From positions 1-42,123 of the IMG/VR virus record IMGVR_UViG_3300030329_004293: a DNA stretch of 42,123 nucleotides, one strand, 5' to 3'. The notes under the pieces are model-generated. The model searched no databases. It saw only the letters and a program-made list of their open reading frames with translations, and had not been told where the DNA came from. Below are positions 12,601 through 33,898 of this stretch, piece by piece. Every line of letters begins with the position of its first letter. The first letter of the stretch is position 1. The DNA is from a virus. The position numbers were made by a program, and so were the translations under genes.

Positions 12601-13306
12601 GATTTTTGTTGTAATCCATTTCAGCTTGAGCCATTGCCATAGCGTTTGCTAAACCTTGCGTGTATTGTTTTATCAAACCTTTTTCAATAAGATTTTGATT
12701 GACAAATGGCGTAAATCTTTCTGAATATCGGGTTATTTCATTTTGTGCAATTTCCCTCCAAACAAGAGGAGCCTTTTGGGAATTTATTAAAAAATCAGTT
12801 ATTCCTTCTGCACGTCCTAATTCTAACTCTTGTTCTAATCGTCCTTTCCTTTCAGCATTTATATCTGCTAAAGCAGAACCAATTACTCCTTGTCTTTTTA
12901 ATTGCAAACGCTTGTTTGCAGACTTATTAAGTTCTTGATCGTCTGAATATTGGACAGGTTCATTAAATTTATATGTGTCATTTAAATATGTTTTTAATTT
13001 ATCTTGGTTTAAATTTTCTGTTCCCCAATTTGGAATAATGTTATAACGCAAATCTTCTGCAATTTGTGCTGCTTCAAGATCCTGATCTCTTTCAATTTCT
13101 TTTGATTTTAATTGTTGATTTGATTTTTGTATTTTTGCAGCAACACCTCCAAGCTTTGAAAATAGACCTTCCAGGTTCTCATATAAGGAAACTTCCGCTT
13201 TAGTTGATCCATAATCTGTAGGACGTTCAGGAACCTGTGTCGTAGGAGACTGCATCATCTGAGTTTGTTGCGGTCTACGCTGGAAGTATTCTCTAGGAAT
13301 GATCAT
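9680..13306 (-). CDS. Internal virion protein with C-terminal SNase-like nuclease domain (1208 aa)
   Basis: Residues 1-1080 are long, highly charged helices typical of podovirus inner-core proteins. Residues 1095-1208 form a staphylococcal-nuclease-type (thermonuclease) domain: VRVIDGDTIEV with Asp1100/Asp1102, VRFGGINTKE with Arg1117 and Glu1125 in the places of SNase Arg35 and Glu43, and GRDIGWVW with Arg1164 in the place of Arg87. Asn1122 stands where SNase has Asp40, a substitution common in bacterial homologues. The main catalytic residues are therefore present. The overlaps (4 nt with the 187-aa gene, 14 nt with the 507-aa gene) place it in the core cassette. If packaged, it would be ejected into the host with the DNA. 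Confidence 0.85.
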   Translation of the reverse strand: MIIPREYFQRRPQQTQMMQSPTTQVPERPTDYGSTKAEVSLYENLEGLFSKLGGVAAKIQKSNQQLKSKEIERDQDLEAAQIAEDLRYNIIPNWGTENLNQDKLKTYLNDTYKFNEPVQYSDDQELNKSANKRLQLKRQGVIGSALADINAERKGRLEQELELGRAEGITDFLINSQKAPLVWREIAQNEITRYSERFTPFVNQNLIEKGLIKQYTQGLANAMAMAQAEMDYNKNPKAFRKMTLAEVLGKYSFDGDIKGNANTDKMIQLWAREQDGDKKTASSVIDTAIQTTEPYLLKQRIQSETGEFNKWYQMLEDEAKIITDQRIKASVQNYNSTLALGTLQDDLATKEDMYKKYTTVVDGKVIPNQEKLLKDFPSNIPKARTIVDSAIKEKKNSEHETRLLNGSKLENLIKLGKLPYQEAKTRIEEENLHPQDRENLNYLNEETQNTAIENSAGRSAEYFLSTPNKQEEFLKSYDKYRDSSGKLKDPETKITSEMSPLEQNIVSMSEATASRLLQKATGELNEITRTGHIGQINNLMADVRSSAQVKKLREGLKNHAYLSNNDKTALDTQLGNLQRVYEEKEVADNERTDAKKDTQRKTEISGQIQTAENLDQLPSDSEIDADKSLSELSKTVLKTNRLLAEKGILLSEKDERTKGLVSKILLRAARIRPEESEELYGNIIREVQTLNLEQYEKDDLTRTLTSARQVHSSNFEAERQKEYRNQKSLNAEKISRFIKITDDPNKIMEMLQLIETGGAVNLEYGDVGRTESVNLEVIGDDLPGGISAMGKELLITQARLKATEIENNTSRPDPQNLEEQEFADNIDRIIRTGSSSKEIIGAIQSIDQYETANRTAGGKYKPWLSRLKTAALQARDHWHNQEDWTRLTRKINTLSGAQEILQKGEKILGSKGTYKHISPTKWLSIQKGASDTIDRLTPDPVENVDAELNRYARYLINDTFFSKNSISDPLMMEDHEKFTLRQRLGLNIQRFQDLEIFSNVVQHEALKTIQLTDATVIRSQMADLDKIARGDQHKILILDMWKDLAEDRIISLSPENRGATLFLDQFRKLENSGEANPEDPSITNIGSKRWITSQKVRVIDGDTIEVLGEDGRYRSVRFGGINTKELTSPDSGPGLAAKQALSKYFKRPGLKFRIEKAPKGHWGRDIGWVWTNENILLNAYMVERGFSPVIDFNGVGKHDKIMRANESR

Positions 13307-28655: not shown

Positions 28656-28680
28656 GCCCCTGACATCGGAAGTTGGGGGC
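28656..28680 (+). promoter_or_regulatory. Stem-loop after the 31-aa gene
   Basis: Nine-base-pair stem (GCCCCTGAC with GTTGGGGGC, two G-U pairs) around a 7-nt loop, eight nt after the stop codon and 12 nt before the next ATG. No T-run follows. It may be a processing or stabilising hairpin between early cistrons, similar in kind to the one at 27863. Confidence 0.45.
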
Positions 28681-28692
28681 ACGAAAGGAAAT

Positions 28693-28878
28693 ATGACACC
28701 AACAAGAAAACTATATAAATCATTAGTCCAGCGTCACAACGGGTTGAACAAGATTGTAAGGAACAAGACGAAATGGCAATTAGCATGCGAGATCATGGAC
28801 CTCAAAAGTCAGCTACATGGCGTTAGAGTCAGCACCGGACTTCAAATCTCGAAAATGAAACAAGAGATGGAAGTGTAA
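28693..28878 (+). CDS. Small basic hypothetical protein (61 aa)
   Basis: Perfect ribosome site (AAAGGAAAT before ATG). The protein is Lys/Arg/Gln-rich, with heptad-like helices (KLYKSLVQRHNGLNKIVRNKTKWQLACEIMDLKSQL), so likely a short coiled-coil or nucleic-acid-binding protein. No motif is recognised. Confidence 0.6.
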   Translation: MTPTRKLYKSLVQRHNGLNKIVRNKTKWQLACEIMDLKSQLHGVRVSTGLQISKMKQEMEV

Positions 28879-28993
28879 CTAATGCGTGGGAGTGTATACA
28901 TCAAAACTGACGCACCCAACTAAGTCGTCTGAGATAGATATGCTCCCACATTCATACTTTTTTGCCTTAACAAATAATCAGCGGAGCGTAGAG

Positions 28994-29530
28994 ATGATTG
29001 AATACACATATGAACAAATTATTGAGTTATTTAAGAAGAATAGTACGGAATGGATGGGCTACGACCTGCCTGACCATGTTAAACAAGTAATACCTTGGTT
29101 CAGTGATCCACTCTGGGACGCTACGCCTTTCACATTTTCAGCAAATGCTGATCACATCAAGCTTGAGTGTGTGACATTACGAACAGATTGGGGCACTTGG
29201 AATGGTTACGTTTACATACCCAATTCACATCCATTATGCACTTTAGAAATGGACGATAAGCTCATTGAAGATTTGCCAGTACATGGTGGAATAACACATT
29301 CAAGTAACTGGGGTACATCGTCAAAAAGAAATTGGGTTATAGGCTTTGATACAAATCATACAATGATTGATTATTCTCCATCACATAATTGCTACACAAA
29401 AGAAACATTTGGTGATGCGTTAAAACGATATAAAAACCGTTCATATGTGATACATGAATTAGAAGACTTAACAACATACATTTTTAAGCATTACGGAAAC
29501 TATAGCTATTACAAGGAAGCGACCAGTTGA
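28994..29530 (+). CDS. Conserved phage protein with GFDxxH-type motif (178 aa)
   Basis: ATG at 28994 was chosen because the GGAGCGTAGAG start cassette immediately precedes it; an earlier in-frame ATG (28886) lacks a ribosome site. The C-terminal half has NGYVYIPNSHPL, LPVHGGITH and WVIGFDTNHTMIDY, a pattern seen in hypothetical proteins of many phages (HGGLT..., GFDxxH), of unknown function. The N-terminal half is less regular and contains several aromatic residues. A metal site formed by the His and Asp residues is possible. Confidence 0.7.
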   Translation: MIEYTYEQIIELFKKNSTEWMGYDLPDHVKQVIPWFSDPLWDATPFTFSANADHIKLECVTLRTDWGTWNGYVYIPNSHPLCTLEMDDKLIEDLPVHGGITHSSNWGTSSKRNWVIGFDTNHTMIDYSPSHNCYTKETFGDALKRYKNRSYVIHELEDLTTYIFKHYGNYSYYKEATS

Positions 29531-29580
29531 TTTTTTTTAATGGATTTATTTTTTTTACCCTTTTTTAACGGAGCGTAGAG
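29531..29580 (+). promoter_or_regulatory. Three T-tracts in a short intergenic gap
   Basis: T8 (29531-29538), T8 (29549-29556) and T6 (29561-29566) fill the 50 nt between two early genes, followed by the GGAGCGTAGAG cassette. No strong stem precedes the first tract, so a standard intrinsic terminator is not supported. A pausing site or a region of slippage is possible. Confidence 0.35.
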
Positions 29581-31614: not shown

Positions 31615-32736
31615 ATGAAACAAGGATTAGATCAATACGGAGTCATTGACGCAATCAAGCGCAATGAAGACATAAAACGTGATTTCGTTTCAAGTACCGA
31701 GAAAATTCAGTTCAGTACCAGAGCAACCAGGACGTTTGATGAAGACGGAAATGAGGTAACAACTCATGATCCTATGTTTGCATTTACAGACAATGCCATT
31801 GGTTCAGCAGCTTGGTTTGACATCAACAAGACGATGGCAACACAGATGTCCAATAAGCTTGGTGTACCTAAAAGCTACTGGGAGAAGTGCTTAAAGAGTG
31901 CTCCGTTGCTTTTGAAAGAGAATGTCGATTATTGGTTATACGAAAATCCTAAGACCATGATGGTTAGGACATTAGGTGAAACCGGACGTGCATTCTTGAG
32001 TGATCGTTATGCTCGTTATGACCATTTCGATGTACTGGAAAAGGTTATGCCAATAATGTCGCAATGGAATATGGAGTTCAGAGATAGCTATATCACTGAC
32101 GATAAGATGTATCTACGTGCGACTTTTCCGACTATGGAGAGAGACATTAGTGCCAGACAGAAGGGCGATGTCGTCAGACTCGGCATCATGATCAGTAACT
32201 CGGAAACGGGGATGGGTCAACTTCAGGCTGGTCCGATCATAGAACGTCTTGTCTGTCTCAATGGCATGGTGGTTACAGATACCAAGTACGCCATAAAGCG
32301 TAAGCACCTCGGATCGAAACTCGAAAACGCTGTTGACAGGGAGATCCTGCGTGAGGAGACCATTGTCCAGCAAGACAGGGCGTGGTTGATGACCTTTGAA
32401 GATCACATGGGAAATCTTTTTAATGGGACTACCTTTGAAGAGATTACTGACAAAATCATCGGAAGTCAGGATTCCGCAGAAGTGGAACGTGCTGAACCAG
32501 CAGTAAAGGAAATCACTAAACGATACAGCTTCTCAGATCGTGAACGTGAAGACATTTACGAAGCATTCCTCACAGGTGGTGATAAAACGAAGTGGGGCAT
32601 GTCAAACGCCATAACCAGCGCAGCACAGAAACGAGTGTCAGCGGATCGTGCTGTTGAAATGGAGGCCATTGGCTGGAACGTCATGAACATGCCCTCACGT
32701 CAATGGGATGAAGTAGCTTTTGCAGAAGCTGGCTAA
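31615..32736 (+). CDS. DUF932 family protein (373 aa)
   Basis: Recognisable DUF932 features: KLGVPKSYWEKCLKSAPLLLKENVDYWL, MMVRTLGETGRAFLSDRYARYDHFDVLEKVMP, and SNSETGMGQLQAGPIIERLVCLNGMV. Members of this family are frequent in phages and plasmids; the function is not settled, with proposals linking it to DNA replication or recombination. Length is normal for the family. AAAGGAATAT precedes the ATG. The stop is followed by tandem TGGCTAAAA repeats. Confidence 0.88.
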   Translation: MKQGLDQYGVIDAIKRNEDIKRDFVSSTEKIQFSTRATRTFDEDGNEVTTHDPMFAFTDNAIGSAAWFDINKTMATQMSNKLGVPKSYWEKCLKSAPLLLKENVDYWLYENPKTMMVRTLGETGRAFLSDRYARYDHFDVLEKVMPIMSQWNMEFRDSYITDDKMYLRATFPTMERDISARQKGDVVRLGIMISNSETGMGQLQAGPIIERLVCLNGMVVTDTKYAIKRKHLGSKLENAVDREILREETIVQQDRAWLMTFEDHMGNLFNGTTFEEITDKIIGSQDSAEVERAEPAVKEITKRYSFSDREREDIYEAFLTGGDKTKWGMSNAITSAAQKRVSADRAVEMEAIGWNVMNMPSRQWDEVAFAEAG

Positions 32737-32755: not shown

Positions 32756-32793
32756 TTTCATTTTGCACTGAAAGCTTAGCGGCAAAACGCTGT

Positions 32794-32808
32794 GATATAA
32801 TATCAAGG
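32794..32808 (+). promoter_or_regulatory. Extended -10 promoter
   Basis: TGATATAAT gives a perfect TATAAT (32796-32801) with the upstream TG of an extended -10 box. No good -35 is found 16-18 nt upstream, which extended -10 promoters do not require. The transcript would start near 32807-32808, at the base of the hairpin. Confidence 0.6.
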
Positions 32809-32847
32809 GGCTGAAAGGCAACTTTTGGCCCTAATTCTTGCCTTTTT
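32807..32847 (+). promoter_or_regulatory. Competing hairpins: GNRA-capped 5' stem versus terminator
   Basis: Structure 1: 32807-32817 pairs with 32822-32832 (11 bp including three G-U) around the loop GCAA, a GNRA tetraloop. Structure 2: AAAGGCAA (32814-32821) pairs with TTGCCTTT (32838-32845) and ends in a T5 run, as in an intrinsic terminator. The two structures share 32814-32821 and cannot form together. The start point of the promoter just upstream falls at the first base of structure 1. This suggests a short RNA or attenuator in front of the 121-aa gene, whose ATG (32863) has no Shine-Dalgarno. Confidence 0.55.
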
Positions 32848-32862
32848 ATCCAAAAAAATACC

Positions 32863-33228
32863 ATGGGATTAGATATGTACGCACAAACTGTCAATAAGTC
32901 TGGCAGTCAAGAAATTGCTTATTGGAGAAAACACAATCGTCTTCACGGATGGATGTGTGAAAAATGGTTAGAACAAAATCCTGATAAGCACGATTATGAT
33001 TTCAATTGTGAAAACTTAGTTATTACATCTGAAATGCTTGATGAATTAGAAGATACCATTAACAACAAAAATCTTCCTGAAACATCAGGTTTTTTCTTTG
33101 GACAAGATAGTTACGAAGATTATTCAGATCCTGAATTCGGATACAAAGAAGACGATGAGCAATTTATTAAAGATGCCCGTGAAGCCATTAAAAATGGTGA
33201 CATCGTTGAATATTCTTCTTGGTGGTAA
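32863..33228 (+). CDS. Conserved phage protein, MGLDMY family (121 aa)
   Basis: Begins MGLDMYAQTV and contains EIAYWRKHNRLHGWM and SGFFFG. This pattern (MGLDMY..., YWRKaN.iH.W, LP.. SGFFFG) is widespread among phage hypotheticals, and its function is unknown. The start has no Shine-Dalgarno but follows the structured leader. The C-terminus is rich in Asp and Glu. It overlaps slightly with a possible TTG extension of the next gene, which I did not accept. Confidence 0.8.
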   Translation: MGLDMYAQTVNKSGSQEIAYWRKHNRLHGWMCEKWLEQNPDKHDYDFNCENLVITSEMLDELEDTINNKNLPETSGFFFGQDSYEDYSDPEFGYKEDDEQFIKDAREAIKNGDIVEYSSWW

Positions 33229-33596: not shown

Positions 33597-33636
33597 GTTA
33601 TAATGCTAATGCTAATCTTGCTAATCTCATTTTTTG

Positions 33637-33685
33637 TTGACAAACATAACAATTACTCTTACAGTTTGTTAAAACTTTTAACAAA
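33637..33685 (+). promoter_or_regulatory. Promoter with palindromic operator before the HTH gene
   Basis: TTGACA (33637-33642), 17-nt spacer, TACAGT (33660-33665): a good sigma-70 promoter. A perfect palindrome covers the start point: TTTGTTAAAA (33665-33674), one central C, and its reverse complement TTTTAACAAA (33676-33685). A second, shorter site, TTTGT-TG-ACAAA (33633-33644), covers the -35. Both share the TTTGTT/ACAAA half-site. The arrangement is typical of an autoregulated repressor; the likely binder is the HTH protein starting ten nt downstream. Confidence 0.7.
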
Positions 33686-33694
33686 TGATTGGAA

Positions 33695-33898
33695 ATGAGC
33701 TATTTGCAAGAGCAAGTGAAGTTTTGGGGAGGAGTTAATCTCCAAGAAATTGCCAAGGAATCAGGCGTGACCGCAACCTATGCATATATGGTCGTCGCAG
33801 GGAAGCGACAAAACCCTAAAGTCAGTAGTGCTGTCAATCAAGCATTACAAAAACGCAAACTTGATTTAAAAAAGAGGCTAATCGATGAACACGCTTGA
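33695..33898 (+). CDS. HTH (Cro/C1-type) DNA-binding protein (67 aa)
   Basis: Helix-turn-helix region around residues 15-43: NLQEIAKESGVTATYAYMVVAGKRQNP, which fits the xIAxxxGVSxxxVxxxxxGKRxP pattern of small Cro-like regulators. The C-terminus is a basic helix. The ATG at 33695 is chosen; TTG at 33689 would add two residues. It has its own promoter and a palindromic operator at the start site, so it probably represses itself and neighbouring replication genes. No lysogeny cassette is seen, so it is more likely an early-gene switch than a prophage repressor. Confidence 0.8.
   Translation: MSYLQEQVKFWGGVNLQEIAKESGVTATYAYMVVAGKRQNPKVSSAVNQALQKRKLDLKKRLIDEHA

Follow-up and report, generated by a model that had tools for sequence, protein, structure and literature searches.

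The DNA analysed here, hereafter the window, is a stretch of 42,123 nucleotides (positions 1 to 42,123 of the IMG/VR virus record IMGVR_UViG_3300030329_004293), and no close cultured relative of this phage was found. Structural genes occupy the minus strand from about 0.1 to 26.9 kb. Early genes, including those for a DUF932 protein, RecT, an exonuclease, an O-like initiator and a ParB-like protein, occupy the plus strand from 27.3 to 40.5 kb. A search for tRNA genes returned none. The feature of interest, here called element A, is a 40-nt segment in the interval between the DUF932 gene and the first small gene of a variable accessory-gene slot. The features of this region are the following.

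31615 to 32736, plus strand: DUF932 gene (Pfam DUF932, E 1.8e-10; phrog_1362), the constant upstream neighbour of element A
32793 to 32801, plus strand: extended -10 promoter TGATATAAT, a perfect match; start predicted from the spacing at 32806-32808
32807 to 32846, plus strand: element A, conserved 40 nt (GGGGCUGAAAGGCAACUUUUGGCCCUAAUUCUUGCCUUUU), ungapped in nine loci
32807 to 32832, plus strand: predicted hairpin of 11 pairs with a GCAA loop and an invariant tandem U.G/G.U
32833 to 32837, plus strand: linker of 5 nt, fixed in length and variable at all positions (alignment A2, columns 30-34)
32838 to 32845, plus strand: tail UUGCCUUU, with UUGCCUU invariant in the alignment; complementary to 32814-32821
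32863 to 33228, plus strand: accessory gene of the variable slot, 121 aa, phrog_7971, unknown function; missing from locus L024
33249 to 33596, plus strand: second slot gene (MPQYIQEWEW...); in L024 it follows element A directly
33637 to 33686, plus strand: right edge of the slot, formed by the promoter TTGACA-17-TACAGT and the palindrome GTTTGTTAAAACTTTTAACAAAT that precede the Cro-like gene
33695 to 33898, plus strand: small helix-turn-helix gene, Cro-like by position

A sequence-only reading of this stretch had described a perfect extended -10 box, an 11-pair hairpin with a GCAA loop, a second complementarity involving one arm of that hairpin, and a following gene that lacks a Shine-Dalgarno sequence, and on these points it was accurate. 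The box agrees base by base with TGATATAAT, and the hairpin is part of the minimum-energy structure. Its pairs (last three digits of the positions) are G807-U832, G808-C831, G809-C830, G810-C829, C811-G828, U812-G827, G813-U826, A814-U825, A815-U824, A816-U823 and G817-C822. Bases 32814-32821 (AAAGGCAA) also pair perfectly with 32838-32845 (TTGCCTTT), and the leader of the gene at 32863 reads TATCCAAAAAAATACC-ATG.

Taken singly, these features are not rare. The box at 32793-32801 is the single occurrence of TGNTATAAT on the plus strand of the window, and both strands together hold three where chance predicts 2.1, which leaves the box without significance by itself; a -35 match was looked for upstream of it and none was found. 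No other GNRA-capped stem of 11 or more pairs exists in the window; two of ten shuffles also contained one, and the stability of the local fold is unremarkable (z = -1.38). What raises element A above chance, given the unexceptional frequency of the promoter or hairpin alone, is its conservation in eight other loci, and this conservation rules out plain chance as an explanation.

Conservation and genomic context of element A

Relatives were sought by DUF932 similarity, with the 5′ half of the hairpin and with partial patterns, and each way led to the same nine distinct loci, metagenomic throughout: the window, L019, L027, L032, L024, L012, L053, L010 and L023. DUF932 similarity gave L004/L019, L005/L027, L006/L032, L007/L037 and L008/L024, and partial patterns of the 5′ or 3′ part gave the others; the near-copies L037 and L025 are not counted among the nine. 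Positions 32807-32846 align gap-free in all nine loci with 82-100% identity, the adjoining 40 nt on each side are 20-53% identical where they are not homologous, and the flanks change abruptly at the edges of the element. Element A always lies just 3′ of the DUF932 gene (in L024 one small ORF stands between them), and the neighbouring DUF932 proteins range in identity from 98% down to 35-38%. Each locus has a single copy, and no other copy was found in the window. The more distant DUF932 neighbours L050-L052 are without element A, and it was not found in cultured phages, plasmids or GTDB genomes. Two genome matches (L096 and L097) were discarded, since the rest of the element is missing from them and they look like chance, as was the one extra contig (L098) given by a relaxed pattern allowing variant loops or altered stems; it is tail-less and falls within the estimated chance number. 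Rfam gave no match at the gathering score in the window or its relatives, and at the locus no match appeared even with E values allowed up to 10.

The predicted stem pairs in 99 of 99 alignment cells. Pairing is preserved through one-sided changes, with G-U, A-U and G-C exchanged at 807-832 and G-C and G-U at 810-829. Formal covariation measures over these nine loci, which vary little, were not above shuffled controls; because the variation is too small for a covariation signal, the case is one of conservation. The invariant tandem U.G/G.U would give mismatches in the opposite strand, which indicates that it is the plus-strand RNA that matters, and a minus-strand RNA was rejected. The tail can likewise be assigned a role, since UUGCCUU is invariant while the 5-nt linker before it varies throughout.

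The same alignment bears on a coding explanation, in which GAAAGG at 32813-32818 would serve as the Shine-Dalgarno sequence for a leader peptide starting at UUG 32825 (frame MALILAF...) and coupled to the next gene. The Shine-Dalgarno-like sequence lies six bases 5′ of the UUG in all nine loci, and in several the frame ends close to the next start. However, most of the linker's codon changes alter the amino acid, the stop is not at a conserved position, UUG starts are rare, and the frame is short enough to arise by chance, which makes a leader peptide extremely improbable.

The promoter is less constant than the element behind it. The segment TGTGATATAATAT[CT]AA is identical and directly 5′ of element A only in the window, L024, L012 and L053, and it is in these four of the nine loci that the early promoter TGTGATATAAT is joined to the stem-loop. 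The promoterless L019, L027 and L032 have element A about 11 nt past the DUF932 stop codon, and L010 and L023 carry a small hairpin with a U tract in the promoter's place. The conserved block begins at 32807 whether or not a promoter precedes it, and where one does, this position equals the predicted +1. It is thus the RNA that is conserved as a unit, rather than the promoter.

A block that begins at a predicted +1 and finishes with a T run could be a trans-acting small RNA of about 35-40 nt, started by the extended -10 box and ended by its own terminator. In L053 the promoter, the element, T6 and the next promoter follow one another with no gene between, as such an RNA would have it. Yet the promoter is missing in five of the nine loci, and the ribosome site of the gene at 13306 (AAAGGCAACATG), a candidate target, is not kept in the relative G002; a small RNA is an unlikely reading of element A. 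The position directly behind a promoter of an early operon in four loci, together with the strong sequence constraint on stem and loop, would also suit an RNA that, like HK022 put, brings about antitermination by modifying RNA polymerase itself. Like put, element A would be a sequence-conserved phage early-region RNA close behind a promoter. The put RNAs, however, are about 70 nt long with two stem-loops (PMC9378689), whereas element A has one 11-pair stem and a tail in 40 nt, and a second adjoining hairpin occurs only in L010 and L023. A put-like function thus seems very improbable. A boxA-type nut site was also tried for the tail and rejected, as UUGCCUUUU leaves the core of the consensus UGCUCUUUA unmatched.

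Gene content shifts exactly at the 3′ edge of element A. The gene directly behind it begins MGLDMYAQ in the window, MPNWTENW in L019 and L032, MHERYKSL in L027 and MPQYIQEW in L024; other genes follow in L010 and L023, and the Cro-like gene in L012 and L053. Compared with the window, L024 is without the first slot gene, position 32846 being joined to 33237, and compared with L027, L032 has one gene extra between element A and MHERYKSL. The promoter of the Cro-like gene is (T)TTTGTTGACA, with the palindrome in the window and L053, and element A of L053 and L023 passes at its T-rich end directly into (T)TTTGTTGACA. In L104 the Cro-like gene stands opposite a minus-strand repressor-like gene and an integrase.

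In temperate relatives attP, a tyrosine integrase and a repressor-like gene are situated in this slot or next to it: the slots of L032 and L027 contain the attP-like 3′ half of a tRNA-Arg gene together with a gene resembling a tyrosine integrase and, on the minus strand, a repressor-like gene. The window is without attP, integrase and repressor genes, so a lysogeny module was lost or gained around a constant element; of the attP-like segment it retains only GCTAATGCTAATCTTGCTAATCTCATT (about 33604-33630). This segment, a tRNA-Arg 3′ half flanked by repeats ATTCCAGTTTCA or ATCTGAGTTT, lies at 5540-5760 in L019, at 9090-9350 in L027 and downstream of the slot genes in L032/L104. In L027 and L032 it adjoins the tyrosine-integrase-like gene, which is convergent, and the repressor-like gene.

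Folding energies, terminator scores and the tail

The sequence-only reading took the GNRA stem as an antiterminator competing with a terminator formed by AAAGGCAA and UUGCCUUU ahead of a T5 run. Complementarity over the full 8 bp in eight of the nine loci, and over 7 bp in the ninth, would be consistent with such an attenuator; seven of the eight pairs are invariant and so carry no covariation signal. The energies speak against it. In the window the GNRA stem is worth -16.5 kcal/mol at 37 °C and -23.9 kcal/mol at 15 °C, against -7.0 and -10.4 kcal/mol for the alternative stem, so that the GNRA stem, which forms first, is ahead there by about 9.5 kcal/mol (37 °C) or 13.5 kcal/mol (15 °C); its advantage is similar in all members. 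Terminator strength was judged by a score of the d'Aubenton-Carafa type (threshold 0), and on this scale the alternative stem reaches -7 to -32, below the threshold for an intrinsic terminator in all nine loci. The T5 run does exist at 32843-32847, but its first three T lie within the 8-bp stem, so that just two T follow it; trimming the stem to 5 bp frees the run and leaves -2.9 kcal/mol. In addition, upstream sequence able to sequester the 5′ arm is not conserved. A two-stem attenuator requires a mutually exclusive terminator of adequate strength, and the alternative stem is weaker, later and sub-threshold throughout. Competition between the two stems is not borne out, and the attenuator is decidedly unlikely. 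The accompanying view that this is not a plain leader does hold, given a 40-nt block that is kept while its flanks change and a promoter present in four of nine loci.

Scored by itself, the GNRA hairpin reaches +23 to +30 as an intrinsic terminator in L010, L023, L012 and L053. In the other five loci, which form the window's clade, AA stands in place of UU after the stem and the score is -7 to -10. If there is a terminator at this site, the scoring would make it the very hairpin that had been taken for the antiterminator, in a form decayed in the window.

The tail could also act in a different fold. Pairing of the loop GGCAA with UUGCC of the tail would give an H-type pseudoknot in which the lower stem has about 7 bp, the second stem 5-6 bp and the linker its fixed 5 nt, a geometry that we judge by rule of thumb. 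Element A would then be a leader that senses a ligand or a protein (the adjacent DUF932 protein is one candidate), and either the folding of the pseudoknot or the bound protein would regulate the downstream gene. UUGCCUU and GGCAA are invariant, the linker varies at five of five positions with no indel, and the tail repeats the CUUU that the upper stem uses as its 3′ strand, which makes strand exchange possible. In L010, L024 and L027 a Shine-Dalgarno sequence follows the tail directly. Against this, the loop-tail pairs never vary, so covariation is not measurable for them, and Rfam has no match. The window, L019 and L032 have no Shine-Dalgarno sequence beside the tail, and in L053 and L012 the next gene is far off or has its own promoter. 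A sensing leader therefore appears rather doubtful. The preQ1-I riboswitch, a small pseudoknot made of a hairpin and a 3′ tail complementary to its loop, offers an analogy: both have, upstream of a gene, a hairpin and a loop-complementary tail that together span about 40 nt. Element A, unlike preQ1-I, has a loop-tail pairing that is a prediction, no Rfam match, occurrence in phage contigs only and no ligand-linked gene.

A proposed role in the early operon

In view of the above we propose, tentatively and with a probability of about 0.45, that element A is a hairpin transcription-control cassette with an optional promoter, which marks the left edge of the accessory-gene slot and serves as an exchange point. 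The proposal builds on the predicted structure, its conservation, its position and the mosaic flanks, and from there we infer termination, promoter activity and recombination. The cassette would act in cis on transcription of the early operon. In the deep-branching L010, L023, L012 and L053 the hairpin and its U-rich tract would form an intrinsic terminator, ending the DUF932 operon before either the slot or the Cro-like regulator is reached. The hairpin of the window's clade would be a weak terminator, because AA breaks the U tract, and would act as a 5′ leader. In four phages the extended -10 box is placed such that a transcript would start at the foot of the hairpin and enter the accessory genes; in L053 this transcript would instead end after about 35-40 nt. 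Since the block is constant while both neighbours change, element A probably doubles as a short homology for module exchange.

Several points count against this cassette model, which draws on nine loci, all metagenomic. The terminator score is sub-threshold in five of the nine loci, and a promoter upstream of a terminator yields mRNA only via readthrough. The model also does not explain the invariant stem sequence and the UUGCC tail. A terminator or recombination anchor alone needs neither these nor the GCAA loop, which points to something that is recognised. It is conceivable, although we consider it unlikely, that element A represents an undescribed phage RNA motif, a 40-nt hairpin-tail pseudoknot that controls the entry of transcription into a swappable slot, with RNA polymerase, a host factor or the adjacent DUF932 protein as the partner that recognises it.

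Cassettes called PeSL (promoter-early stem-loop) have reportedly been described in T4-type phages by Arbiol et al. in 2010 and Comeau et al. in 2014. They are reported to join a conserved early promoter to a terminator-like stem-loop in the early region beside exchanged genes, an arrangement that element A resembles. PeSLs are characterised by a high copy density in shuffled regions (PMC4503421), whereas element A has one copy per locus. It further differs in having the promoter in four of nine loci and a terminator-like score in four of nine, in its base-for-base conservation with an extra invariant tail, and in phages that are not T4-like (an O-like initiator and RecT, with integrase and repressor genes in relatives). 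By this analogy PeSL is the nearest known system in anatomy and setting, and element A is PeSL-like rather than a PeSL because it is single-copy, promoterless in five loci and conserved beyond what a PeSL needs. The PR′-tR′ region of lambda offers a further likeness, a promoter that fires into a close terminator. That likeness ends with the arrangement: no Q-type gene was seen here, and element A belongs to the early and accessory region, the late genes being on the other strand.

If the cassette model holds, it would describe a tiny regulatory unit outside T4-like phages that stays near-constant while the genes on both sides are replaced, and a simple handle on how phages plug accessory genes into existing control. 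If the tail turns out to belong to a pseudoknot or to bind a protein, element A would be a new phage RNA motif and could offer an initial lead on the function of DUF932 proteins, which are widespread and unexplained.

Other conserved segments of the early region

Further segments of the early region recur in some of the same relatives. A second conserved hairpin, element B (gCCCCUGAC-AUCGGAA-GUUGGGGGc), lies at 28656-28680 of the window immediately 5′ of an ORF at 28693, and is found also in L019 (about 1838) and L053 (about 416-440). In L053 the lower stem is substituted by AGGG/CCCU with pairing retained. Elements A and B have the CUGA/UUGG tandem wobble in common. Positions 28886-28966 hold a long-stem structured RNA, CGTGGGAG...CTCCCAC followed by a T6 run, which is predicted to be a small RNA or a large terminator. 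It occurs also in L019 (same region, reverse strand), L012 (91-155) and L053 (914-978); the inner sequences differ in each relative and all still fold (-24 to -33 kcal/mol).

An extended ribosome-site motif, GGAGCGTAGAGATG, is repeated 5′ of several unrelated early genes (window 28983, 29570 and 29974; L019 2164 and 2748; L012 188 and 259; L053 1011 and 1083). It exceeds what a Shine-Dalgarno sequence needs and is possibly a shared translational operator. Finally, the intergenic string TTTTTTTAATGGATTTATTTTTTTT is conserved between the window (29530-29558) and L053 (about 1047-1077).
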